A stretch of DNA of 64,000 nucleotides, from contig CALAJN010000004.1 in NCBI GenBank assembly GCA_937922675.1, positions 310,001 through 374,000 on the forward strand, written 5' to 3'. The notes under the pieces were generated by a model that searched no databases, was not told where the DNA came from, and saw only the letters and a program-made list of their open reading frames with translations. A program made the position numbers and the translations under genes. The DNA is from an uncultured Granulosicoccaceae bacterium. Its GTDB lineage: Bacteria; Pseudomonadota; Gammaproteobacteria; Granulosicoccales; Granulosicoccaceae. Positions 18,015 through 30,782 of this stretch are shown in pieces (the stretch's first letter is position 1; the number at the start of each line of letters is the position of its first letter).

Positions 18015-19157
18015 ATGAGCGCCGCGATAGACACTCCGTACATGGCCGAATCGGCTGCGCGCAAGCCCCTGACAGAGGCAGCACGTCGGCTACAACATGA
18101 GCTGCTTGACCAGGTCTCGCGTACGTTTGCATTGACCATCCCCTGCTTGCCTGCTGATTTGGCCGATGTCGTCGGCAACGCGTACCTCTTGTGTCGCATT
18201 GTGGATACGATCGAAGACGAGCTCGACACTGACAATGCGGCCCGAGACCTGTTGTACGCGCGCTTCAGGCAGTGTTTGAGTATCGAGTCTCTGGACGATG
18301 ACCAGTCGGCTGCTGACTTTGCTCGGAGTCTTGCCGCCCTGCTGCCGCAGAGCGCCCCTGCGGGCGAGCAATTTCTGGTCGAGCGGGTTCCCGACGTCCT
18401 GGATATCACCGCGAGTTTTACGCAGCAGGAGCAAGCCATACTGCGCAGGTGCGTTGCCGTCATGACGCAAGGCATGCGTGAATTTCAGGTTCTCGGCTCC
18501 AACGGCCAGGGGCTTGAGAGCTTCGCTACACTCGACCGATACTGCTATCACGTGGCAGGCTGCGTTGGCGAGCTCCTCACCGAGCTGTTCTGTTTGCACG
18601 ATCCGGGCATTGCCTCCCGCCGTGACCAACTCATGCCGCTGTCGCGAGCGTTTGGCAGCGGTTTGCAAGTCACCAACATCCTCAAGGACATGTGGGTCGA
18701 TCATGAAAGGGGTGTGTGCTGGTTGCCCCTGGAGGCGTTTACGGCGGCGACAGCAACAGCCAGTGCCCGGACAGATTTGAGCAACACACCCGCAAGCCTG
18801 CCCGAACTCATGCAGCGGGCGATTGATGGCGACCCGGAAGCGGTGCACTTGATCGATCAGGGAACCGGCAGACTGGTTGCTCGCTGTCGTGCTGATCTTG
18901 ACCAGGCGATGCGCTACGTGCGCACGATTCCGCGTACGCATCGCGGTCTGCGGGTCTTTTGTCTTTGGTCAATCGGGCTGTCAGTGCTGACCTTGCGCAA
19001 AATTCGCCGTCTCAGCGTCAGCCAGCGTCTGGGTGGCACCAAGGTGTCGCGCAACAGCGTCAGGTTGACCTTGCTGTTCAGTGGTGCCAGTGCCGGACTC
19101 GCACCGGTGATGCAGGCCTTCTATTCGATTGCCTGTTTCGGTTTGCCACGCAGGTGA
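18015..19157 (+). CDS. Squalene/phytoene synthase family protein, squalene synthase-like
   Basis: A 380-residue all-alpha prenyl-condensing enzyme. Both aspartate-rich motifs are visible: DTIEDELD near residue 70, which resembles the eukaryotic squalene synthase form, and NILKDMWVDHERG near 225; the SRTFALTI segment before the first motif is also typical. Length and motif style favour condensation of two farnesyl diphosphates to squalene or presqualene rather than phytoene formation. C-terminal hydrophobic stretches could anchor it to the membrane. No hopanoid, carotenoid or cyclase gene is adjacent, so the downstream pathway is unknown. ATG 18015 is the first start in frame. Confidence 0.82.
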   Translation: MSAAIDTPYMAESAARKPLTEAARRLQHELLDQVSRTFALTIPCLPADLADVVGNAYLLCRIVDTIEDELDTDNAARDLLYARFRQCLSIESLDDDQSAADFARSLAALLPQSAPAGEQFLVERVPDVLDITASFTQQEQAILRRCVAVMTQGMREFQVLGSNGQGLESFATLDRYCYHVAGCVGELLTELFCLHDPGIASRRDQLMPLSRAFGSGLQVTNILKDMWVDHERGVCWLPLEAFTAATATASARTDLSNTPASLPELMQRAIDGDPEAVHLIDQGTGRLVARCRADLDQAMRYVRTIPRTHRGLRVFCLWSIGLSVLTLRKIRRLSVSQRLGGTKVSRNSVRLTLLFSGASAGLAPVMQAFYSIACFGLPRR

Positions 19158-19959: not shown

Positions 19960-20943
19960 TCATCCCCAGAGAGCAGGCTCGGCCGGAAAGACTTCGCTGC
20001 CGCGGTATTGCAAGGCTGGAGTTCTGTCCTCAGCGAGCAACAGAGGCCCGTCAAGATCGACCACACTGGCGGCCTGTGCAACGAGGATGGCGGGAGCCAT
20101 GGACAGTGAGGTTGCCAACATGCAGCCCACCATCACGTCAAGGCCGCACTCCTGTGCGGCGGCGGCGAGTGCGAGTGCTTCTGTCAATCCGCCGGTCTTG
20201 TCCAACTTGATATTGATCATGTCGTAGCAACCGACGAGTTGCTCAAGTGACGCACGATCATGGCAGGATTCATCGGCGCACACGGGTAGCGGGCGTTCGA
20301 TCCCGGCGAGTTCCCGGTCATCATCGGCGGGCAGTGGTTGCTCAACCAGGGCCACATCAAGCTCAAGCAGATGAGGCACCAGGCGTTGATAGTCAGCCAC
20401 GCTCCAGCCCTCGTTGGCGTCGACGATCAGGCGGCTATCAGGGGCACCGCGCCGAACCGCAGCCAGGCGTTCAAGATCGCCGTCGCCACCGAGCTTGATT
20501 TTCAACAGCGGCCTGTGTGCGGCTTTCCGCGCGCTGAGCTCCATCTGATGCGGCTCAGCCAGCGACAAGGTGTACGCGGTGTGCAAGGCGTGTGGTTCAG
20601 CGAGCCCTGCCAAAGCCCATACAGGAGACCCCGATCGTTTTGCTTGCAGGTCCCATAAGGCACAATCAAGCGCATTGCGCGCAGCGCCTGGCGGCATTGC
20701 GCTCTGGAGCTCCTCCCGGGTCATACCATCGCCAAGCCGTTGTGCCATGGATTCAATCTCGTGTTGCACACCGTCGAGTGATTCACCATAGCGAGCGTAG
20801 GGCAGACACTCACCCCGTCCGGTGTGACCATCGAGGCTCAGAGTCACCGACACGACGTCCGCATGCGTGCGCGAGCCGCGCGATATGGTGAAAACACCAT
20901 CAAGCGCAAAGCGATCCTGGGTAACGCTCAGCCGCATTGACAT
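19960..20943 (-). CDS. dgcA: N-acetyl-D-glutamate racemase / dipeptide epimerase family
   Basis: Enolase-superfamily enzyme of the muconate-lactonising subgroup, 327 residues. The two catalytic lysines are in LLKIKLGG and NIKLDKTGG; the metal ligands are in VDANEGW, VEQPLP and CADES. Such proteins are often annotated L-Ala-D/L-Glu epimerase, but the gene directly follows a DUF1611 gene. That pair matches the DgcN-DgcA route, in which D-glutamate is N-acetylated and then racemised to N-acetyl-L-glutamate. ATG 20943 is taken as start, 5 bp after the dgcN stop; a TTG at 20952 overlapping that stop is an alternative. Muropeptide epimerase remains possible. Confidence 0.82.
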   Translation of the reverse strand: MSMRLSVTQDRFALDGVFTISRGSRTHADVVSVTLSLDGHTGRGECLPYARYGESLDGVQHEIESMAQRLGDGMTREELQSAMPPGAARNALDCALWDLQAKRSGSPVWALAGLAEPHALHTAYTLSLAEPHQMELSARKAAHRPLLKIKLGGDGDLERLAAVRRGAPDSRLIVDANEGWSVADYQRLVPHLLELDVALVEQPLPADDDRELAGIERPLPVCADESCHDRASLEQLVGCYDMINIKLDKTGGLTEALALAAAAQECGLDVMVGCMLATSLSMAPAILVAQAASVVDLDGPLLLAEDRTPALQYRGSEVFPAEPALWG

Positions 20944-20948
20944 GGACG

Positions 20949-21971
20949 TCAAGCGATCTCGCTTGCCAGCGTTTGCAAGGCCTCGGCAAGTCGATCAGCT
21001 CCGTCACGAAAGGGATCCACGGTCGGTAGGCCGAGTTCGGCCTCGGTGCGCTCACAGAGGGTCTTTGCAGCCTCTGCATCGAGTGCCTTGGTGTTGATGG
21101 CAACGCCAACCGCTTGTGCTCTTGGGTTGACCACGCGGGCCATGTCAACCGCTGTGTCACGCAGGCGACTCAAGCTGGGCAGGCTGTAATTGGGCAAACC
21201 GCGCATGTGTGTGCGCGTAGGCTCATGGCATAGCACCAGCGCATCAGGCGCACCGCCGTGAATCAAGGCCAATGTCACGCCAGAATATGAGGCATGAAAA
21301 AGACTACCCTGTCCCTCGATGAGATCCCAGTGATCATCTGTACTTGCAGGAGGGGTGAGGTGCTCGATGGACCCTGCCATGAAGTCAGCAACAACGGCAT
21401 CAAGCGGTACTCCTTCACCGGTGATCAGAATGCCTGTCTGACCGGTGGCACGAAAACTGGCTGACAGGCCACGTGCTCGCATGGCGCGCTCTATTGCAAG
21501 TGTGGTGTACATCTTGCCCACCGAGCAGTCCGTGCCGACGGTCAAGCATCGCAGGCCACGGCGAGCAACGCCATCGGCAATCGGATACTCCTCGGTCGGG
21601 ATACGTACGTCGGTCAGCTGTCGGCCCTTGGCTTGCGCCAAGGCGACCAGCGACTCGTCATCACTCAACAACTCGTGCAGCCCGGAGGCGATATCGAGTC
21701 CTTTTTCAAGCGCTTCAACAAACACCTGCTTCCATGAAGCGTTGATCACCCCACCCCGATTTGCAGCACCGACCACCAGGGTGCGCGCCCCGGCCGCAAT
21801 CGCTGAGTCAATGTCCAGGTCCCGGAGCCCGACGTCAGCCTGGCAACCGGGCATACGGTACTGACCAACACAGAGCTCCGGGCGCCAATCACGGATGCCT
21901 TGCGCCACCTTGGCAGACAAGGCGTCAGGTACGTCGCCGAGAAATAATAGATACGGGGTGGCAAGCGACAT
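20949..21971 (-). CDS. dgcN: DUF1611 protein, D-glutamate N-acetyltransferase DgcN-like
   Basis: A 340-residue protein with a P-loop-type nucleotide motif, GTDCSVGKMYTT, near residue 145. An N-terminal Rossmann-like domain contains GAANRGGVIN, and EGQGSLFHASYSG, HEPTRTHMRG and VAINTKALD are conserved DUF1611 landmarks. DUF1611 members paired with an enolase-superfamily racemase have been assigned as DgcN of D-glutamate catabolism, found largely in marine proteobacteria and haloarchaea. That pairing is exactly what is seen here. No dedicated regulator or transporter is adjacent; the preceding same-strand gene encodes a cytochrome and ends 68 bp upstream. Confidence 0.82.
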   Translation of the reverse strand: MSLATPYLLFLGDVPDALSAKVAQGIRDWRPELCVGQYRMPGCQADVGLRDLDIDSAIAAGARTLVVGAANRGGVINASWKQVFVEALEKGLDIASGLHELLSDDESLVALAQAKGRQLTDVRIPTEEYPIADGVARRGLRCLTVGTDCSVGKMYTTLAIERAMRARGLSASFRATGQTGILITGEGVPLDAVVADFMAGSIEHLTPPASTDDHWDLIEGQGSLFHASYSGVTLALIHGGAPDALVLCHEPTRTHMRGLPNYSLPSLSRLRDTAVDMARVVNPRAQAVGVAINTKALDAEAAKTLCERTEAELGLPTVDPFRDGADRLAEALQTLASEIA

Positions 21972-22039: not shown

Positions 22040-23485
22040 TCAGAGGGTTTTCAGGTACTCGACTACGGCGGCGCGCTCAGCCTCACTCAAAGCGTCGCCA
22101 AAGCGATGGCCAGAATTACTGTGCCCATGCCTGTTTGTGTTGTAGATCCGTTTTAGCTCGTTTGAATCAAGCGACTCGGTCTGCTCAAGCGTCACAGGCT
22201 TGTACCGCCAGCCAAGGCGCTCGGTGTCATAGTCAGCGCGATCGTTTCCGTCGCTGGCCAGCGACATCCAGATCTCGGGTCTTGTCGAGCTGTCCAACAC
22301 GTGTGCAATCGTGGGCACAGAGCCGTTGTGCAGGTATGGCCCGGTTGCCCAAATGCCGTCGAGGGGTGGTGCCACATAGCCGCTCCCCGGTAGTACTTGC
22401 GTGTTCTTGCCGTAATACGAGCGCCTGAACCACTCCACCCACGGGCCGCCCGTGTCTCGCGCCTGTTCCATCAAGGCAGGATCGGAGCCCAGCACCTCGA
22501 TGTCGACCAGAAGATTCGGATACTCACTCGTCTCTCCGTAGCGTCCATGACAGGCGCTGCAGGTCTGTTCAAATATCGTCTGGCCTTTTTCAGCCAAGCC
22601 TGTGTCAATGGAAAACGGCCATATCGGCGGCTCCAGACTGGTTATATAGGCTCTGATGTCCGGTGCATATTCATCGATGGCTTGCAGTTCATCGAGCTCA
22701 TCAATGCACATCATGGATGCCGCCATCATGTATCGCGCATGATCACCTCGTCCCTCACCCAGATTGAACATGGCGTGTTTTTTTTTCATACGCCACCACG
22801 GAGGCACGCTCACAGGTGGAGGTTGCTGTGTGGGTAGCGGAAGCAACGGCGTATCGGACCATGCATGAGTGTCCGGGTCGCGATAGGCCATCAAGGCGAA
22901 AGTCAGATTGTTTGCTGGATTGCTGCCGATTGTTGGCATCTGGACATGCGGGCTGATAGCGGCAATGCGATCAGCGTATCGCTCCCAGGCTGCTGCCTCG
23001 GCCATATCACTTATGGCAAGTCCGGCACGTTCGACGGCGGTGGACGGATTACCTGTGAAATCAGCAAATTCATTGCCGAGGCCGATGACAACCTCGCCAA
23101 ACAAGGTGGCCCCGTGGCAGCTGAGACAGTTGTTCACGACCAGATCCACCCCGTCATCATCGGTTACAGCGTTCAGGAAGTACGGCAGATTCTCACTTGC
23201 CTCGTTACGCCCTGAAAGTGTGGCTATCGGTGTGGATCCTTGCAGTTGACGCCACGCGCTGGCAGGCAAACCACACCCGACATAATTCTCTGTCAGCAAG
23301 GCCTCTCTACCACGTGCGGCATCACCCTCACGCTGTGGCGAGGCTGGAATCGGACCTGCCGCTTGCAAGGTCAGTGCGCGTGGCAGTGGTGGGTCGCTGG
23401 ATTCGCTGGTGCAGGCGCCGACCGCGAGTATCAGCACTAGCAGGCCTGCATGGCGCAAGGGGCGTGACTGTCGATCCGTGTTCAT
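22040..23485 (-). CDS. Di-heme c-type cytochrome lipoprotein (peroxidase/RoxA-like)
   Basis: A 481-residue exported lipoprotein (lipobox LAVGAC, Cys25) with two heme-attachment motifs, CLSCH (Cys120-His124) and CSACH (Cys309-His313). Between them lie VPPWWRMKKKHAMF and GRGDHARYMMAAS; after the second come YVAPPLDGIWATGPYLHNGSVPT and a short final helix. These are hallmarks of the large family of di-heme cytochrome c peroxidase/RoxA-like proteins. The GPYLHNGS segment commonly marks the active-site side. The substrate is unknown; peroxide reduction or an oxygenase reaction are both possible. Its ATG overlaps the stop of the AttH-like gene as ATGA, so the two are translationally coupled. Confidence 0.87.
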   Translation of the reverse strand: MNTDRQSRPLRHAGLLVLILAVGACTSESSDPPLPRALTLQAAGPIPASPQREGDAARGREALLTENYVGCGLPASAWRQLQGSTPIATLSGRNEASENLPYFLNAVTDDDGVDLVVNNCLSCHGATLFGEVVIGLGNEFADFTGNPSTAVERAGLAISDMAEAAAWERYADRIAAISPHVQMPTIGSNPANNLTFALMAYRDPDTHAWSDTPLLPLPTQQPPPVSVPPWWRMKKKHAMFNLGEGRGDHARYMMAASMMCIDELDELQAIDEYAPDIRAYITSLEPPIWPFSIDTGLAEKGQTIFEQTCSACHGRYGETSEYPNLLVDIEVLGSDPALMEQARDTGGPWVEWFRRSYYGKNTQVLPGSGYVAPPLDGIWATGPYLHNGSVPTIAHVLDSSTRPEIWMSLASDGNDRADYDTERLGWRYKPVTLEQTESLDSNELKRIYNTNRHGHSNSGHRFGDALSEAERAAVVEYLKTL

Positions 23486-24744
23486 CGCTTGTTGCTCTCC
23501 AAATCGATGTATCCACCTCCGCGATGAGTGCCGCTTGCCAATACGAGACGGCGCAGGCGCCCGTCGAGATCGCCGGATACATCGCCTGTGGCCTCGTCAC
23601 GTGTACTGACCGTGGCATCGACCTTGGCATCGACGTTGACAAGGGGGCGCACAGCGACGTCCAGATGCAGATCCGGAATCGTCAGCTGCGACGTGCAGGT
23701 AGCAGCGGTATCACACGAGCCAGTAGTGCTCCACGACACATCATTGAATTCAATGGCCTCGAGTGATGCTGTGACAACAGCTGCGCCCTGCCCGCTACGA
23801 CGGCGAGTCTTGATGACATCGACGGTGCCGATACCCCGCAAGGTCAACACCATGCTGTCGAGCACGACTGCTGATGTGCTCGAATCGATACGACCCCAAC
23901 TATGCCGCATCCAGGCCACACCACTGACGGGGATGGGGGCGTTGTCCTCGTAGCGCTCGCCGCTAACAAGCAAGGGTGCTGTGCGGGTGATCACCGATGT
24001 CTCGGTGAGAAAATCCTCAGGGCAGGCGTGCGTGTTCATTGTGACGTGGGCATGCGGCGAGACATTCAAGGTCCACGATCCGGCACAAACAGACACAGTC
24101 GAGGTACTGATCTCTCTCAGCGATGGCACGGCGGTGGAGAATGTGGCCCTCTGCCCCAGTACATGGGCGCTCAAGGGGAGCGTGAAGTCGTTTTGAAACG
24201 TCCTGGCAAGCCCTGCAGCCTCACGTTCGGTGTTCTGCCAGAGGCTCGACCGTCCAACGTCGCGACTCCAACGTCCAGCGGCTTGCATGACTGAATCAAA
24301 CATCCAGTTGCTCGCAGGTTCCGAAGCACTGGCGGGGTGATGACTGGACTCACCCGCCAGGGCAATTCGGGTAAACCGTTGTTGCAGAGCGTGGACCGCA
24401 TCACCGTCAGTATCAGCGAGCAGGACAAACCACTCGCGTGATTCGAGCGGCGCCTGCGGATGCTCTGCAAGATCTGCGGGCCATGACGGACGCTCAGGTG
24501 TCCAGTGCTCGGCATCGGCAAGGAGCGCCACGGCGTTTTCTGTCAACGCAACCGGCGTCCGGGGCACGTCCGGATCTGTCTGCTCGGACGGTACACAGGC
24601 CCCGAGCGCGAGCAGGCTCAGCCCGTAGATGATGTGCAGACCGGCACCGGTGTCCGGGACAGGTACACCGCCCACGCCGGCCAAGCGCTTCAGAAGGTGC
24701 CGAGTCCCGTTGCTTCCATCAATCGGTATTGTGTCGTCAGCCAC
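23482..24744 (-). CDS. AttH/CrtC-like lipocalin-fold lipoprotein
   Basis: A 420-residue protein. About residue 50 a hydrophobic stretch ends in LLALGAC, a plausible lipobox. Later segments match the AttH/CrtC lipocalin pattern: SREWFVLLADTDGDA, NWMFDSVMQAAGRW, and above all PVSGVAWMRHSWGRID, which corresponds to the VxGxAWMDHEW signature. CrtC members hydrate carotenoids; AttH members sit with ABC transporters of lipophilic compounds, and neither context is present here. Start uncertain: GTG 24744 overlaps the phospholipase gene by 55 bp and leaves a long region before the signal peptide. TTG 24684 or GTG 24675 would shorten it. It is coupled to the cytochrome gene by a 4-bp overlap. Confidence 0.7.
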   Translation of the reverse strand: MADDTIPIDGSNGTRHLLKRLAGVGGVPVPDTGAGLHIIYGLSLLALGACVPSEQTDPDVPRTPVALTENAVALLADAEHWTPERPSWPADLAEHPQAPLESREWFVLLADTDGDAVHALQQRFTRIALAGESSHHPASASEPASNWMFDSVMQAAGRWSRDVGRSSLWQNTEREAAGLARTFQNDFTLPLSAHVLGQRATFSTAVPSLREISTSTVSVCAGSWTLNVSPHAHVTMNTHACPEDFLTETSVITRTAPLLVSGERYEDNAPIPVSGVAWMRHSWGRIDSSTSAVVLDSMVLTLRGIGTVDVIKTRRRSGQGAAVVTASLEAIEFNDVSWSTTGSCDTAATCTSQLTIPDLHLDVAVRPLVNVDAKVDATVSTRDEATGDVSGDLDGRLRRLVLASGTHRGGGYIDLESNKR

Positions 24745-26192
24745 AGACTCTCATTCGCGTGATCTGCATACGGTAATGAATACGTGCGGCCGGGCTCATT
24801 ACGCCAGTGACGTTCAAAGCGGGACAGCATCTGTTGCAGACCGGGATCGCTCCGGTCCGTACGCAGTACCAGATTGCTCTCCAGGTTGTAGTCGGCGAGG
24901 TTGCGCCGGGTAAAGTTACCAGACCCGCTGAGCACCACATGACGATCCGCTATGCGCGCATGAAACCATTTGACGTGGCATTGCTCCCCGGCAGTTGCGC
25001 ACCAACGTACCGTGACGCCTGCCTTTGTCAACTCGTGCGCGACTGGAACATTGGGGACGCCGTTTTTGGCGCGTCCGAAGGCATTGCTGTTGACATCCAA
25101 CAGCACTCGTACGGCAACATCTCGTTGCGCCGCCGCGACCAGCGCATTGATGATCTTGCGCTCCGCGAGGTAGAACATCTCAAGATCCACAGCGTCAGGG
25201 GCTTGTGCTGCATCCAATGCCTCCAGAACCACGTCCCGTATGGCGGATTCGTTGACCAGTGACACCGATGTCTCGGAAGGCTCTGTCAAGGTCTTCTCCG
25301 GCGCATCGATCATGTCGGCGATGATTCGCTGTGCCGCAGGTTGCGCAGACACCCCCGGCACCAACAGCTCGGCGCGCAACAGATCCTGCACCACGGGGCC
25401 GCCCACACGCCAGGCCATGTTGCGATGAGCGCTGCTGCCATCGTGTGGGTTTGCGGACATAACCATGGCGAGCAACTGACCGCTCGCCGGATCATCGAAT
25501 ACAGCGAGCTTGCGGTGATTGGCCTTGAAGTTCAGCAGTGCCAACCAGCTGCGCACGGATACCCGGCCGGCTTTCATGGGGTTGGGCACCGTGTCCAGAT
25601 TCGCCTCATTGCCAAAGGGCCTTATCAACCATCGCCACACACTGGACCACAGTGGATTGCTGTCCTGTAGCGGTAACAGGTCAGTAGTGACCACCTCGAC
25701 ACCGGCGGATCGCAACCTTTGCAGTTGTGGTGAGCTCAGGCCGCCGTAGAGTGTGTTGATTGGGTCAGTGGTCAATACTATTCGTGGCGCAGGTGTGCGC
25801 TCGGTGGCGTTGATCAGTTTCTGGGTCAGTTCTGCGGAAAGCGCCCGCGTAGTCTCGGCGACCGGCCCCTGCCAGTCATTGAAGAGAAAAAAATCGAGGT
25901 AGACGAATTGCTGCGCCTGATCAATCGCGGCAAACAGGGTGTCGAATATGGATTGCTCGAGCTGCCTTTCGCCTGCCGCGTCCAGCCAGCTATCGTCGGT
26001 CAGAACCGAGAAATCGCTTGCCTCGCGGGGTGATCCTGCTATACCCACCGCAGCAGGCGGTGGGCTGATCGCTGTGACCGCCAGTGTAGAACCCAACCAG
26101 ACGATCACGGTCACAGCAGTAACGCGCATCAAGCGAGTGGTAATCGAAGGTCGCTCACGTTTTTCAGTTCTCGATTTCTTGAGCTGCTTCAT
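24690..26192 (-). CDS. Phospholipase D-like protein with one altered HKD motif
   Basis: A 500-residue protein with an N-terminal membrane or signal segment (VTVIVWLGSTLAVTAI) and two PLD-type halves. The first catalytic motif is intact, NHRKLAVFDD, about residue 226. The second reads HVKWFHAR, with His and Lys present but Arg where Asp is usual, followed by the conserved SGSGNFTRRN. YLDFFLFND near the N-terminus resembles the cardiolipin synthase family. The location is probably periplasmic or membrane-anchored; phosphatidyl transfer or phosphodiester cleavage is inferred only. It begins the three-gene overlapping cluster with the AttH-like and cytochrome genes. ATG 26192 is preferred to TTG 26204; neither has a strong ribosome-binding site. 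Confidence 0.82.
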   Translation of the reverse strand: MKQLKKSRTEKRERPSITTRLMRVTAVTVIVWLGSTLAVTAISPPPAAVGIAGSPREASDFSVLTDDSWLDAAGERQLEQSIFDTLFAAIDQAQQFVYLDFFLFNDWQGPVAETTRALSAELTQKLINATERTPAPRIVLTTDPINTLYGGLSSPQLQRLRSAGVEVVTTDLLPLQDSNPLWSSVWRWLIRPFGNEANLDTVPNPMKAGRVSVRSWLALLNFKANHRKLAVFDDPASGQLLAMVMSANPHDGSSAHRNMAWRVGGPVVQDLLRAELLVPGVSAQPAAQRIIADMIDAPEKTLTEPSETSVSLVNESAIRDVVLEALDAAQAPDAVDLEMFYLAERKIINALVAAAQRDVAVRVLLDVNSNAFGRAKNGVPNVPVAHELTKAGVTVRWCATAGEQCHVKWFHARIADRHVVLSGSGNFTRRNLADYNLESNLVLRTDRSDPGLQQMLSRFERHWRNEPGRTYSLPYADHANESLWLTTQYRLMEATGLGTF

Positions 26193-26404
26193 GGTTCGAC
26201 TCAATATCCAGATAGTGTGCGCATGTTGCCTCGGGATCTTGTGACACCGTCACGAAGTTGGCAGTGCCGATTGATAGAATTGCCGTGATAAGGGCCGGGA
26301 CACCAATTCTCCCGGGTGCAGAGCTCAACAGCATGTATAGACTCTCGGGGTGAGGTTGTGCTGTACCGCTCGATGATTCCCGCAACGGGACAGGACAGTC
26401 AGCG
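26193..26404. promoter_or_regulatory. Divergent region before the exopolysaccharide operon
   Basis: This 212 bp separates the divergent phospholipase-like gene and the tyrosine-kinase gene and should hold both promoters. It contains the short inverted repeat GTGAC-ACC-GTCAC at 26241-26253, which looks like half of a CRP-type site but has one spacer base too few. AGGAC lies about 10 bp before the kinase ATG as a possible ribosome-binding site. Confidence 0.45.
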
Positions 26405-28681
26405 ATGAAGACATTTCCAGACAGCTATGCCGCAGCGCCGGCTTACGGTGGCGCGCAGATGCAAGGCTATGCCACCGTCCCGGCCACCAGTGACGCCAAG
26501 GCGTATCTGAAACTGCTGCTTTCGCACAAGCTCGGTCTGTTGTTGGCGACCCTGCTCGGTATTGGGCTCGCATGGCTGTACCTGATCAGCACCGAGCCTG
26601 TTTACGAGACTTCGGCGTTGGTCGAGGTCGTTGAACGCGGCAATATCTATGACGAGGACGGAAGCGCCGCCACCGACTGGAATGCGCCAACCATCAATGA
26701 AGAGGCTAACCGCCTGCGCTCGCGTCGTGTCTTGCAGCCGGTTGTCGATAACTATGACCTGCGCACGGTTTCCGAGGCGCGTCGTATTCCGGTTCTCAGC
26801 GATCTTGCGGCCAGAATCCCGGCTCTTGGCGACAGCCTTGCAGGATTTGAGGCAGCGAGCGCCTATGCCTGGCAGGACACCACGCTAGACGTTGCAGAGC
26901 TGAGCGTACCGCGCAGAATGGAAGACAGGCCCCTCACTCTGACGGCTCTCGAAGGCGAGCAGTACAGCCTGTCCTACGACGACCGTCTTCTGGTTGAGAG
27001 CGCCAGCGTGGGTCAGCGCATGCAGATCGAAATCGGCAACGGCGACGCGATATCCATCACTGTAGCGTCCTTGTCAGCCCGGCCAGGCGTTGAATTCGAC
27101 GTCGTTCGTCAGTCTCTTGAAGTGACCATCAATGGCTTGCGCAATCAGCTCTCTACCGAGACCAGTGACAGCAAGTCCCGCATGATTACCGTCAAGCTTG
27201 CGGGCAGTGACCCGCAACGCATTGCAGAGCTTACCAATGCGATTGTCACCGAATACCAGGCGGTGCGTCTGGGTTCGGAAAACCTTGCAACGCGCACAGA
27301 ACTGGAACTCTACGAGGTGGATCTACCGCGCGTCGAGCAAGAGCTGCGCGACGCTGAACTGGCCTTGTCGCAGTTCCGTCGCAACAGCCAGAGCTATGAC
27401 GAGGATGAGCAGACTCGCGCCAAGATCCGTCAGCTCGACAAGTTGGAGACTCAGCTGATCGATCTTCAGATCGAGCGTGACGAACTCAAGGGGCGCTATA
27501 CCGATGTACACCCGAGTTTGCGCAAGCATGACAAGGAAATTGCCGTGGTCCAGAGCGCCATCAACAAGATCGCCGGCACTATCAGCTCGCGTCCTGATAC
27601 CCAACGCGAGCTGTCGGTACTCGAGCAGGAAGTCGCGACCAAACTGTCACTGTTCACAGAAATGAGCGAGAGCCTGCAGCGCCTGCGCGTTGCGCAGGCC
27701 GGTAACGTGGGCAGTGTCGACATTTATGATCCGGCGCTTGCGCCACGCAAGCCTGTTTCCCCCAATGCCGCTCTGGCGCTCGTTGGCGCGGTGCTGAGTA
27801 CCCTGTTCCTGTATTTGTTGTGGTTGACACTCCGATCTGCGCTGACCACCAAAATCACTGATCAGGAGTCGCTCGAGCGCGCTTCAGGTTTGCCTGTCTA
27901 CATGAACATCCCGAAGAGTGCTGCGCAGAAGCGCATCGCCAACGGGCCTGCGGTTGTTGACCCGCGGCGTCTGCTGCCAGGCAGCAGTTCTCCGGAGGAT
28001 GTGGCACGCAGTCGCGTTCTGGCGATCGCCAAACCTGATGATTACTCGGTTGAGAATCTGCGCGGCCTGCGCTCCATGCTCGAGGACGTCATGGCCGGTG
28101 CTGACAACAATGTACTGATGGTCACCAGTCCTTTACCGAGCATGGGCAAATCCTTTGTCAGCTTGAACCTGGCTGTGCTGCTCGCCCAGGCTGGCCGACG
28201 CGTGCTGTTGATCGATGCTGACTATCAGCGTGGTCAACTTCACAAATCCATGGGCCTGCCTGTCGGTCCCGGGCTGCCAGAAGTGGTCAGAGGCAAATCA
28301 GAGCTTCGCGAGACGGTACGCGCCACCTCTGTTCAGAATCTGTTCTGTATACCGCGTGGGTTCACAGGGGATGCCGGTGTTGGCATGGAGATGCCCAGTG
28401 ACAAAGAATTTGCTGCCTTCATGCAGGTGGTCGCACCGCGTTTTGATATCGCCATTATCGATACACCGCCTGTGCTCAGTGTGGCAACGGCTGCCTCCCT
28501 TGGACGTCATGCCGGTTCGACGATCATGGTCGTCAAGGAAGGCGAGGTCAAAGAGCCGCAGCTGAACGAGTCCATCAAGCGTTTGATGTTCTCCGGGGTG
28601 CGAGTGAGCGGTTGCATTCTCAATGGCTCGTCCACACCGACACCCAAGCACTACGCGTACTACCGCGAGCAGCTCGATTGA
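26405..28681 (+). CDS. Polysaccharide co-polymerase / tyrosine autokinase (Wzc-like)
   Basis: A 758-residue inner-membrane protein controlling exopolysaccharide chain length and export. N-terminal Wzz domain flanked by two transmembrane helices (near residues 41-61 and 455-478) with a long coiled-coil periplasmic part between. The C-terminal BY-kinase has Walker A SPLPSMGKSF near 576, Walker A' LLIDADYQRG near 602 and Walker B IAIIDTPPV near 681. It ends in a tyrosine cluster, YAYY, for autophosphorylation. It is the first gene of the exopolysaccharide operon. No Wzb-type phosphatase and no Wza exporter is present, although both usually accompany Wzc. ATG 26405 follows a modest AGGA site. Confidence 0.93.
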   Translation: MKTFPDSYAAAPAYGGAQMQGYATVPATSDAKAYLKLLLSHKLGLLLATLLGIGLAWLYLISTEPVYETSALVEVVERGNIYDEDGSAATDWNAPTINEEANRLRSRRVLQPVVDNYDLRTVSEARRIPVLSDLAARIPALGDSLAGFEAASAYAWQDTTLDVAELSVPRRMEDRPLTLTALEGEQYSLSYDDRLLVESASVGQRMQIEIGNGDAISITVASLSARPGVEFDVVRQSLEVTINGLRNQLSTETSDSKSRMITVKLAGSDPQRIAELTNAIVTEYQAVRLGSENLATRTELELYEVDLPRVEQELRDAELALSQFRRNSQSYDEDEQTRAKIRQLDKLETQLIDLQIERDELKGRYTDVHPSLRKHDKEIAVVQSAINKIAGTISSRPDTQRELSVLEQEVATKLSLFTEMSESLQRLRVAQAGNVGSVDIYDPALAPRKPVSPNAALALVGAVLSTLFLYLLWLTLRSALTTKITDQESLERASGLPVYMNIPKSAAQKRIANGPAVVDPRRLLPGSSSPEDVARSRVLAIAKPDDYSVENLRGLRSMLEDVMAGADNNVLMVTSPLPSMGKSFVSLNLAVLLAQAGRRVLLIDADYQRGQLHKSMGLPVGPGLPEVVRGKSELRETVRATSVQNLFCIPRGFTGDAGVGMEMPSDKEFAAFMQVVAPRFDIAIIDTPPVLSVATAASLGRHAGSTIMVVKEGEVKEPQLNESIKRLMFSGVRVSGCILNGSSTPTPKHYAYYREQLD

Positions 28682-28940
28682 CAACCGGGCCAGACGGCAC
28701 AAAAGACAGGTGTTGATCATAGAATTGTTTGCTGATCTACCCGTCGACGCCGTACATCAGTCGCACCGCCACAGCTGGCTGGCTAAAAGTGTGGTGTGTG
28801 CCAATTACCGGCGATTCAAAGGTGTAATTCTGTAAACCACGGCTAGAATTGCCACATGGGAACGGTCTTTATCTGCCGGGATGGTTAGTATGGCGGCCTA
28901 TTGACGCTTCCTAACCATTTTGTCAGGAGACAATCCCTCG
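28682..28940. other. Intergenic gap before the sugar transferase
   Basis: This 259 bp is more AT-rich than its surroundings and holds no gene I can support. A second promoter for the rest of the exopolysaccharide operon could lie here. The 10-mer TAGAATTGCC is shared with the region before the kinase gene, but no matching -35 element is seen at either place. Confidence 0.4.
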
Positions 28941-29693
28941 GTGTCCCAAACTAAGCTCACTAATAATAAAAATCTGGGCAAGGACATTGTCGTCGGCATT
29001 CCAAGCGCTAACGCGCCGAGTGTCAACGATGAGCAGCTCAGCTCCACGGCTCCCTGGCCGTCGCTCGTCAATCGTGACACGCGTGTTCTCGAGCCGCTGT
29101 CCGGTCTTGGCGCGATGCTCAAGCGCCTCGAGGACTTCGTGCTCGGTTCACTTGCGCTCATCCTCGTTTTTCCCATACTGATCATCATTGCGGTTGTGAT
29201 CAAGTTGGACAGCACCGGCCCCGCGCTCTTCTGTCAGGCACGTAGTGGTCGTAACCGCAACGTCATCAAGGTCTACAAGTTCCGAACCATGTATCAGAGC
29301 GGCGGAAGCGAGTTTCGGCAGGCGAGTCGCAACGACCCTCGCGTCACCCGTGTCGGCGCGTTCTTGCGACGCACCAGCCTCGACGAACTACCGCAGTTGA
29401 TCAACGTGATTCAGGGCTCCATGTCTCTGGTGGGACCACGCCCGCACCCGCTCAAGCTCGACGAGGACTTCAAGTACGTCATACCGGCGTTGAACACCCG
29501 ATACTGCGTCAAGCCAGGCATCACCGGTTGGGCCCAGATCAACGGCTTTCGGGGTGAAACGCGCAAGGTAGGCGATATGATCGGGCGTATCGAGCACGAC
29601 AGGCACTACATCTACAACTGGAGCCTGTTGCTTGACCTGAAGATTCTGGTCATGACGGTGCTCAAAGGCTGGACTCACAAGAACGCGTTCTGA
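28941..29693 (+). CDS. Initiating sugar-1-phosphate transferase (bacterial sugar transferase)
   Basis: A 250-residue polyprenyl-phosphate hexose-1-phosphate transferase that loads the first sugar on undecaprenyl phosphate for exopolysaccharide repeat synthesis. One N-terminal membrane segment (LGSLALILVFPILIIIAVVI) precedes the catalytic core: FCQARSGRN, VYKFRTMY, RRTSLDELPQLINV with the Asp-Glu pair, GSMSLVGPRPHP, and KPGITGWAQINGFRGET. It is a short form without the extra N-terminal helices of WcaJ. The GTG at 28941 is chosen because AGGAGA lies 10 bp before it; a TTG seven codons upstream overlaps that site. The specific sugar (often glucose or galactose) is not determined. Confidence 0.92.
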   Translation: MSQTKLTNNKNLGKDIVVGIPSANAPSVNDEQLSSTAPWPSLVNRDTRVLEPLSGLGAMLKRLEDFVLGSLALILVFPILIIIAVVIKLDSTGPALFCQARSGRNRNVIKVYKFRTMYQSGGSEFRQASRNDPRVTRVGAFLRRTSLDELPQLINVIQGSMSLVGPRPHPLKLDEDFKYVIPALNTRYCVKPGITGWAQINGFRGETRKVGDMIGRIEHDRHYIYNWSLLLDLKILVMTVLKGWTHKNAF

Positions 29694-29716
29694 AAGAGCC
29701 TGTACCCGAGCGGTGT

Positions 29717-29753
29717 CTTGATGGGGCGTCCCTTACCGGGCGTCCCGATCAAG
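29717..29753 (+). terminator. Possible hairpin after the sugar transferase gene
   Basis: CTTGAT at 29717-29722 pairs with ATCAAG at 29748-29753, with further G/C pairing inside the loop (GGGG against CCC, and an inner CCC/GGG). No T-run follows, so it is at best a weak or attenuating terminator within the operon. Confidence 0.35.
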
Positions 29754-29759
29754 TGATTT

Positions 29760-29784
29760 GATAACGCGTTATTCGATAACGCGT
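29760..29784. repeat. Direct repeat GATAACGCGT with embedded palindrome
   Basis: GATAACGCGT occurs at 29760-29769 and 29775-29784, a 15-bp period. ATAACGCGTTAT at 29761-29772 is a perfect 12-bp palindrome. It lies in the 291-bp gap before the WecG/TagA-type gene, which holds no supportable gene, and could be an operator. Confidence 0.75.
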
Positions 29785-29984
29785 ACCGGGTCTTGCTGAA
29801 TACGAGCAACAGGTCCAGATCCCCGACAACAAACTTGTCACCATTGCGTCTCCACTACGGGTGGCGTACTTGCGCGCCACTGCATAGACTTTAGGGATCG
29901 GCGTAACTCGCGGCAACGTCCATTGACGATGTCGCAAGTTTCAGTACTCCCGCGGTCGATGACAAACCCTGGCAGGCGCACACC

Positions 29985-30782
29985 TTGAAACAGATTGACT
30001 CCCACCAGTTGGCCGCACGGCATCTCTGCGGCTTCACGGTGCATCCGGGTTCGATTGAGGATTACGTGGAGCTTGCACGCTCAACGGTTGCGCAACGTGC
30101 TTCATGCACAGTGCTCTATCACAACCTCCATTCGCTGTATTGCTGGTTTCGTTCCGAGACCTTGCGGCGCCACTACGCTGGTGCAACTGTACTGGTTGAT
30201 GGCATGCCCGTCATTGGATTGCTCCGTGCGGGCGGCGCTGAGGTCGGCAGAGAGCATCGTGTGACGTATGTTGATCTGATCATGCCCTTGCTCACCATGG
30301 CTCGAGACAATGGCTTCAAGGTCTACCATGTAGGTCAATCAGCTGCTGTACAGCAGCAGGCGCTCGAGGCGGTGCGCGAAGCGGTCCCGGGGATCGAGAT
30401 CAGGGGCCATGACGGCTACTTCGATCAGTCAGAAGGCTCGACAGAGAGCGAGGCGGTGATAAACGACATGAACGAGTTCAAGGCTGAACTTGTCTTGGTC
30501 GGTTTCGGCACACCGCGTCAGGAGGCCTGGTTGCACGCTTATCGAGAGCGAATCGATGCGCCGGCCGTCTACGCTTGCGGTGCGTGTATGGAATATGTCG
30601 CGGGCGAGGTCGCCACCCCACCTCGATGGATGGGCCGCTTGGGCCTTGAGTGGAGCTTCAGGCTGTTCGAGAATCCGCGACGCTTTGCGTTTCGATATGC
30701 GATCGAGCCTGTGTTGCTGGCAGGCTATCTGGCGCGTGGCTGGTTCAGTTCAAAACGTTCACCCGCTGTCATCGACTCGTGA
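29985..30782 (+). CDS. WecG/TagA/CpsF-family glycosyltransferase (GT26)
   Basis: A 265-residue transferase of the family that adds N-acetylmannosamine or similar sugars to a polyprenyl-linked acceptor. Family landmarks: VLYHNLHSLYCW region, VLVDGMPVIGLLRAGG with the conserved Asp, RVTYVDLIMPLL, YHVGQSAAV, IRGHDGYF, and VLVGFGTPRQEAWL. The only reasonable start in frame is TTG 29985; an ATG at 29959 is out of frame. It sits within the exopolysaccharide operon and probably adds the second sugar of the repeat unit. The GTG at 30779 that could start the next gene overlaps its stop. Confidence 0.9.
   Translation: MKQIDSHQLAARHLCGFTVHPGSIEDYVELARSTVAQRASCTVLYHNLHSLYCWFRSETLRRHYAGATVLVDGMPVIGLLRAGGAEVGREHRVTYVDLIMPLLTMARDNGFKVYHVGQSAAVQQQALEAVREAVPGIEIRGHDGYFDQSEGSTESEAVINDMNEFKAELVLVGFGTPRQEAWLHAYRERIDAPAVYACGACMEYVAGEVATPPRWMGRLGLEWSFRLFENPRRFAFRYAIEPVLLAGYLARGWFSSKRSPAVIDS

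Follow-up and report, generated by a model that had tools for sequence, protein, structure and literature searches.

The best described relatives of the diheme cytochrome considered here are the rubber oxygenases RoxA, RoxB, and RoxC (PDB 4B2N; NF050033, NF050034, and NF051462), of which RoxA oxygenates polyisoprene and requires Phe317, a residue that helps hold O2 there (PMC6311187). RoxA-related diheme enzymes that act on unsaturated fatty acids are PA2077/PA2078 of P. aeruginosa (FadCcp; 10S-DOX/7,10-diol synthase), of which PA2077 oxygenates oleate (PMC4496055), and both are periplasmic (PMC5155153). The lipocalin encoded next to our cytochrome has its closest described counterparts in canonical AttH (NE1406, PDB 2ICH; PF07143 and PF17186), which is tied to an ATP-binding cassette (ABC) transporter (PMC2954199), and in the carotenoid 1,2-hydratase CrtC, whose described residues are His239, Trp241, Tyr266, and Asp268 in Rubrivivax numbering (PMC4717167). 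Here we describe a lipocalin gene and a RoxA-like cytochrome gene that lie together, next to a PLD-like gene, in a 64,000-nucleotide stretch (the window) of contig CALAJN010000004.1 from an uncultured Granulosicoccaceae bacterium. Both protein families are known; within the open-licence part of PubMed Central, no paper was found that describes a RoxA-like cytochrome in partnership with an AttH or lipocalin gene. Our preferred reading, held tentatively and with somewhat less than even confidence, is that the two proteins act as one module tethered to a membrane: the lipocalin would deliver a hydrophobic molecule or take it away, and the diheme enzyme would oxidise that molecule.

Conservation of the lipocalin and cytochrome genes

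Among the 27 genomes of the genus, 22 carry both genes, five carry neither, and none carries a single one. The 22 genomes with the cytochrome are the same ones that give a strong lipocalin match (E-value of 3e-53 or better), and three of the five pair-less genomes (G005, G014, G017, G022, and G023) show only weak lipocalin matches elsewhere (1e-5 to 7e-4). The interval between the DUF1611 and Wzc genes holds the PLD-like gene alone in G005, G017, and G023, at about 2 kb rather than 4.3–5.2 kb, and unrelated genes occupy the gap in G022.

Named genomes were scanned with the cytochrome alignment, and the best 80 of 573 confirmed relatives were kept; the same scan with the window lipocalin alone gave no matches. 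Within these best 80, all 22 loci from Pseudomonadota have the lipocalin gene immediately before the cytochrome gene and on its strand, these loci being from Granulosicoccaceae (seven loci), Chromatiaceae (Thiocapsa, Halochromatium, and Thiorhodococcus), Methylococcaceae, Rhodobacteraceae in the wide sense (Ruegeria, Paracoccus, and Rhabdonatronobacter), and unplaced gammaproteobacteria, with Thiocapsa marina, Ruegeria marina, and Methylolobus aquaticus among the strains; two of these loci are truncated at contig ends (L141 and L146). The lipocalin was found upstream in none of the other 58 loci (Bacteroidota, Myxococcota, Verrucomicrobiota, Lentisphaerota, Planctomycetota, and unplaced), of which 51 have at least 1,300 bp upstream. 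The Bacteroidota cytochromes have neighbours such as GMP synthase, DNA ligase, and an Lhr-type helicase, and no common third partner was found among the neighbours outside Pseudomonadota. The lipocalin and cytochrome trees agree (Mantel r 0.88, with 0 of 2,000 shuffles as high) over 33 pairs, a set that leaves out L141 and L146 and represents the seven named Granulosicoccaceae loci by their genus rows. As read from these gene neighbourhoods and trees, the lipocalin and the RoxA-like cytochrome are a conserved two-gene pair that reaches well beyond close relatives.

Strict adjacency, fixed order, and tree agreement could also be expected of a lipocalin that is devoted to assembling or anchoring the cytochrome and has no lipid ligand, and the membrane tethers conserved on both proteins (see below) would suit that role. 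We nevertheless regard it as highly unlikely, because all 58 related cytochromes outside Pseudomonadota do without a lipocalin neighbour and because the lipocalin family shares its fold with proteins whose ligands are small hydrophobic molecules (PMC2954199).

In one genus genome (G020), the lipocalin gene (L036, 8164–9375) is broken in the assembly and is also split in the named contig L133; the cytochrome gene there is open.

Family assignment and features of the two proteins

The window cytochrome carries two CxxCH motifs (CLSCH and CSACH) and matches Pfam RoxA-like_Cyt-c at 7e-23; the cytochrome profile finds RoxA (4B2N) at 2e-34, and the structural model, with a mean predicted local distance difference test (pLDDT) score of 78.9, has a Foldseek match to RoxA (4b2n) at 4e-18. 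The heme motifs, His460, and PYLHNGSVP are conserved in the genus alignment (21 rows, omitting G001) and in the comparison with RoxA. By these profiles and the model, the protein is a compact RoxA-clade diheme cytochrome c, which upholds the preliminary description of the locus, made from the window alone, in its family assignment of a RoxA/peroxidase-like di-heme cytochrome. It has in common with RoxA, RoxB, and RoxC the superfamily, the fold, the two CxxCH motifs, the positions of the His ligands, and the MauG-type PYxHNGSVP motif. It differs from the rubber oxygenases in its total length (481 residues versus about 650–820), in being a predicted lipoprotein, in its separate clade, in its pairing with a lipocalin, and, for the window protein, in lacking an equivalent of Phe317; the rubber-oxygenase models of NCBIfam give it 119–160 bits against cut-offs of 900–1000.

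In a 93-row tree made by a quick method, with eight of the 21 genus cytochromes and three RoxB/RoxC rows named by NCBIfam (both RoxC above cut-off, RoxB at 877 of 900 bits), three groups lie outside the cytochrome clade: RoxB/RoxC, the tandem RoxA-like cytochromes, and the general diheme peroxidases. FadCcp is a tandem of two cytochromes, whereas here a lipocalin is joined to one cytochrome; the tandem RoxA-like cytochromes that branch apart from ours are taken as likely kin of PA2077/PA2078, the tree being without PA2077/PA2078 themselves. Two distant genomes have such tandem cytochromes near an animal-haem-peroxidase protein of about 1,000 residues (L099, 971–13960; L127, 1211–9007), one of them also having a cytochrome P450 and the other both a GMC and a flavin oxidoreductase, and these gene sets are possibly a bacterial oxylipin cluster.

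The window lipocalin gave no match in Pfam or NCBIfam profile searches, and the AttH/CrtC label given to it earlier is therefore beyond the reach of profiles from this protein alone. At the family level, the label was confirmed by its genus relatives, by the partners outside the genus, and by the predicted fold. Of 20 aligned genus lipocalins (the broken L036 gene of G020 and the contig-split one of G001 being omitted), 11 match Lipocalin_9 (E-values up to 1; best 3e-8) and ten match the CrtC profile (up to 1; best 8e-10); all four tested partners from other families exceed both gathering cut-offs (PF07143 and PF17186), and a PDB search with the lipocalin profile gives AttH 2ICH at 5e-6. For the AlphaFold model (mean pLDDT 75.5), the top Foldseek match is 2ich_A (AttH) at 7.7e-15, which is indicative of the two-domain AttH fold, and further neighbours include kievitone hydratase, 25-phosphosteroid lyase, CghA, and Fsa2. 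On this combined evidence, the middle gene is an AttH/CrtC-family lipocalin. In addition, Cys220 and Cys241 are invariant in the genus and absent from the outside partners and from canonical AttH, which suggests a genus-specific disulfide.

Canonical AttH has the two-lipocalin-domain fold and the Pfam families in common with the pair lipocalin but differs from it in partner, a MacB/FtsX ABC transporter in place of the diheme cytochrome. PF07143 proteins are present in 40 of 185 genomes of the class, and in all three canonical loci that were inspected the genes directly before AttH encode an ABC ATPase and a MacB/FtsX permease; no FtsX/MacB-type ABC transporter adjoins the pair, whose neighbours in the window and the genus are Wzc, PLD, cytochrome, DUF1611, and epimerase genes. 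In a tree of 11 of the 20 genus lipocalins, 12 of the 13 from outside, 15 canonical AttH rows, and L248, a branch with full support separates the pair-type lipocalins from canonical AttH, with the root free to lie on either side. Most of the pair-type proteins have H-x-W-G where canonical AttH has D-R-E-W, and the His is retained in 82% of the 11 genus rows and 92% of the 12 outside rows. CrtC also has its Pfam family in common with the pair lipocalin; unlike a carotenoid hydratase, however, the pair is present in genomes in which phytoene desaturase was not detected.

Given such relatives (CrtC, kievitone hydratase, 25-phosphosteroid lyase, and Fsa2), the lipocalin might itself be a hydratase, lyase, or cyclase whose step in a short pathway precedes or follows that of the cytochrome. 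The Foldseek neighbours point this way, as does the mostly conserved H-x-W-G, since CrtC needs a His-x-Trp pair (PMC4717167). The His, however, varies (R, Q, and N) within the genus, and its correspondence to CrtC is a lead only. Moreover, the genus lipocalins are just 17–33% identical to the window protein (the cytochromes, 50–63%), which is unusually fast for a catalyst, and we consider an enzymatic lipocalin quite unlikely.

Both proteins are predicted to be exported and membrane-tethered. A lipobox regular expression recognises 16 of 20 genus lipocalins and 17 of 20 genus cytochromes. Outside the genus, none of the 13 paired lipocalins has a recognised lipobox and all have a strongly hydrophobic N-terminus, and eight of their cytochrome partners have a recognised lipobox and the others a hydrophobic N-terminus; hence, the tie to the membrane seems conserved, but not the means. 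The lipoboxes that had been noted in two of the three proteins of the locus, and the overlapping ends of its three ordered genes, are both as previously reported (Table 1). The start of the lipocalin gene is uncertain because much of the sequence 5' of its lipobox overlaps PLD coding sequence.

Table 1. Features of the locus, in window positions
Feature	Position	Strand	Remarks
PLD-like gene	24690-26192 from ATG, or 24690-26204 from TTG	minus	Open reading frame; N-terminal hydrophobic segment
AttH/CrtC-family lipocalin lipoprotein (predicted)	23482-24744	minus	GTG start, uncertain; first gene of the conserved pair
RoxA-clade diheme c-type cytochrome lipoprotein (predicted)	22040-23485	minus	Second gene of the conserved pair
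ATGA overlap of lipocalin stop and cytochrome start	23482-23485	minus	Read directly from the sequence
55-bp overlap of PLD-like gene and first possible start of lipocalin gene	24690-24744	minus	
Lipocalin lipobox Cys50 (LGAC)	24595-24597	minus	Invariant in 20/20 aligned genus rows
Cytochrome lipobox Cys25 (VGAC)	23411-23413	minus	Invariant in 21/21 aligned genus rows
N-terminal heme motif C120-LSC-H124	23114-23128	minus	H124 equivalent to RoxA H195
C-terminal heme motif C309-SAC-H313	22547-22561	minus	H313 equivalent to RoxA H394
MauG-type motif PYLHNGSVP	22313-22339	minus	Common to RoxA; motif named in PMC6311187
Cytochrome His460	22106-22108	minus	Aligns with RoxA H641, second axial ligand of the C-terminal heme

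The PLD-like gene and the flanking genes

The first gene of the locus had been called PLD-like, and its product indeed matches Pfam PLDc_2 at 1e-21. Both of its HxK motifs are invariant in an alignment of 19 of the 21 rows (G001 and G014 omitted), and the Asp of HxK(x)4D is conserved in neither. ClsB and other PLDc_2 proteins likewise have two HxK motifs; in contrast to ClsB, however, the protein reaches only 38 bits against a cut-off of 281, and its second motif is without the usual Asp.

In line with the preliminary description, which joined all three genes in one lipid-related system, they might together process phospholipids, a proposal that the overlapping genes on one strand and their order, conserved in much of the genus, would favour. 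The PLD-like gene and the pair nevertheless occur independently of each other, the former being present in 21 of the 27 genus genomes (16 with the pair and five without) and the pair standing alone in six. Short PLD fragments lie between the lipocalin and Wzc genes in four of the six PLD-less pair loci (G013, G026, G020, and G011), and such remnants next to retained pairs imply that the PLD-like gene decayed while the pair stayed. Among the loci from the named-genome scan, none outside Granulosicoccaceae has a PLD-profile match, and the matches found (six full-length and one fragment of 153 residues) all come from Granulosicoccaceae records. The 16/6/5 split, the remnants, and the want of matches beyond the family led us to reject the trio as a unit, and a three-gene system, largely refuted already, is hardly credible. 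As judged from this survey, the PLD-like gene stands outside the conserved unit and adjoins it in this genus as an independent neighbour.

The divergent Wzc-like and glycosyltransferase genes (26405–30782) border the locus in almost every genome of the genus and constitute a stable frame within which the pair is retained or lost. After the cytochrome come a DUF1611 protein and a mandelate-racemase-like epimerase (19960–21971), in an order kept in most of the genus; DUF1611 with an epimerase of this kind is known as the DgcN/DgcA D-glutamate pathway, which these two genes may represent. A squalene/phytoene-synthase-like gene lies at 18015–19157 and scores below every NCBIfam cut-off; it was set aside as a linked partner, being nearby only here and in the sister genome G003 among the compared loci.

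Possible function of the pair

Every such cell contains fatty-acyl lipids, and a related enzyme acts on oleate (PMC4496055). Phytoene desaturase above cut-off was not detected in 14 of the 22 pair genomes, and six of the 22, two of them 97–99% complete, have no match at all to squalene/phytoene synthase. The general substrate is thus unlikely to be an endogenous carotenoid or squalene, and the idea that either is an obligatory home-made substrate is weakened. As the pair persists in strains in which these genes were not detected, a fatty-acyl lipid is preferred as the substrate, and fatty-acyl lipids seem likelier than carotenoids or squalene.

In the module that we favour, the lipocalin would take a hydrophobic molecule from the membrane and hand it to the diheme enzyme, or carry the product off. 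The N-terminal heme (on the His124 side) would activate O2 or peroxide and oxidise a C=C bond of the molecule, and the bis-His C-terminal heme (His313/His460) would supply or store electrons. Oxidative processing or transport of a lipid or isoprenoid was the function suggested in the preliminary description, and an undescribed unit for lipid oxidation at the envelope is a fair reading, although not with the PLD-like gene as part of the unit. More tentatively still, the pair may be a system, as yet undescribed, by which proteobacteria oxygenate lipids in the periplasm; in it, an AttH lipocalin would have swapped its ABC transporter for a RoxA-clade enzyme and become a dedicated subunit for presenting substrate or removing product, the outcome being oxylipin-like or cleaved envelope lipids.

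Several observations weigh against lipid oxygenation by such a module. The window cytochrome has no equivalent of Phe317, residues 241–262 being without Phe, and the O2 chemistry may therefore differ. The RoxA position falls on Ala256 in the ungapped alignment and on Met253 or Met254 in gapped ones; some relatives have a Phe elsewhere nearby (L150 and L138), and in the Planctomycetota row L209 a Phe occupies the ungapped position. With these nearby Phe residues, and with RoxB-like and RoxC rows lacking Phe at that column, the family-wide alignment is unsure there, and the cytochrome model is poor around this stretch (pLDDT below 50 for residues 242–254). The inter-heme Trp302 of RoxA is Asn in the window cytochrome and variable in relatives. 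On the side of the lipocalin, NE1406 is described as having no large cavity (PMC2954199), so ligand carriage is not guaranteed, and in the genus alignments the lipocalin evolves much faster than its cytochrome partner. The cytochrome relatives of Bacteroidota and Myxococcota lack the lipocalin, which implies that the enzyme can act without it. In the class of the window genus, G063 has a cytochrome of the Pseudomonadota clade without a lipocalin in the 970 bp available upstream; this gene (L125, 970–4887) has a 4-bp overlap with a GDPD phosphodiesterase, followed by a flavin adenine dinucleotide (FAD) oxidoreductase and PgpA, and another contig of G063 carries the lipocalin with the best pair-profile score among the extra AttH proteins (269 bits; others reach 265). 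Finally, failure to detect carotenoid or squalene genes is no proof of a missing pathway where genomes are incomplete.

The missing Phe317 would also be in keeping with a cytochrome that is a peroxidase, in which case the pair would detoxify lipid hydroperoxides, the lipocalin pulling oxidised lipids from the membrane for reduction. The superfamily is related to the bacterial diheme cytochrome c peroxidases and MauG, and its member PA2078 acts on fatty-acid hydroperoxides (PMC4496055). A weak hint at photo-oxidative stress comes from the photosynthetic reaction-centre genes, which occur in nine of the 27 genus genomes, all among the 22 with the pair and none among the five without. With five pair-less genomes, however, this contrast is not significant (chance about 0.11 by a hand estimate), and a link between the pair and phototrophy was rejected because reaction-centre genes were not detected in 13 of the 22 pair genomes. 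The window cytochrome, moreover, reaches only 119 bits of the 150 set as cut-off for the general diheme cytochrome c peroxidase model (NF040606), and it branches nearer to RoxB/RoxC than to the general diheme peroxidase group. We therefore view a peroxidase as unlikely, though it deserves real weight.

RoxA-clade diheme enzymes are known from few cases, namely rubber cleavage and oleate oxygenation. In the favoured module of lipocalin and oxidising cytochrome, the strictly linked lipocalin, if a true partner, would be a natural delivery subunit for an enzyme that acts on insoluble substrates, and the pair is a testable two-protein system in named strains. Our comparison also suggests, for the functionally little understood AttH family, a second kind of partner besides ABC transporters.

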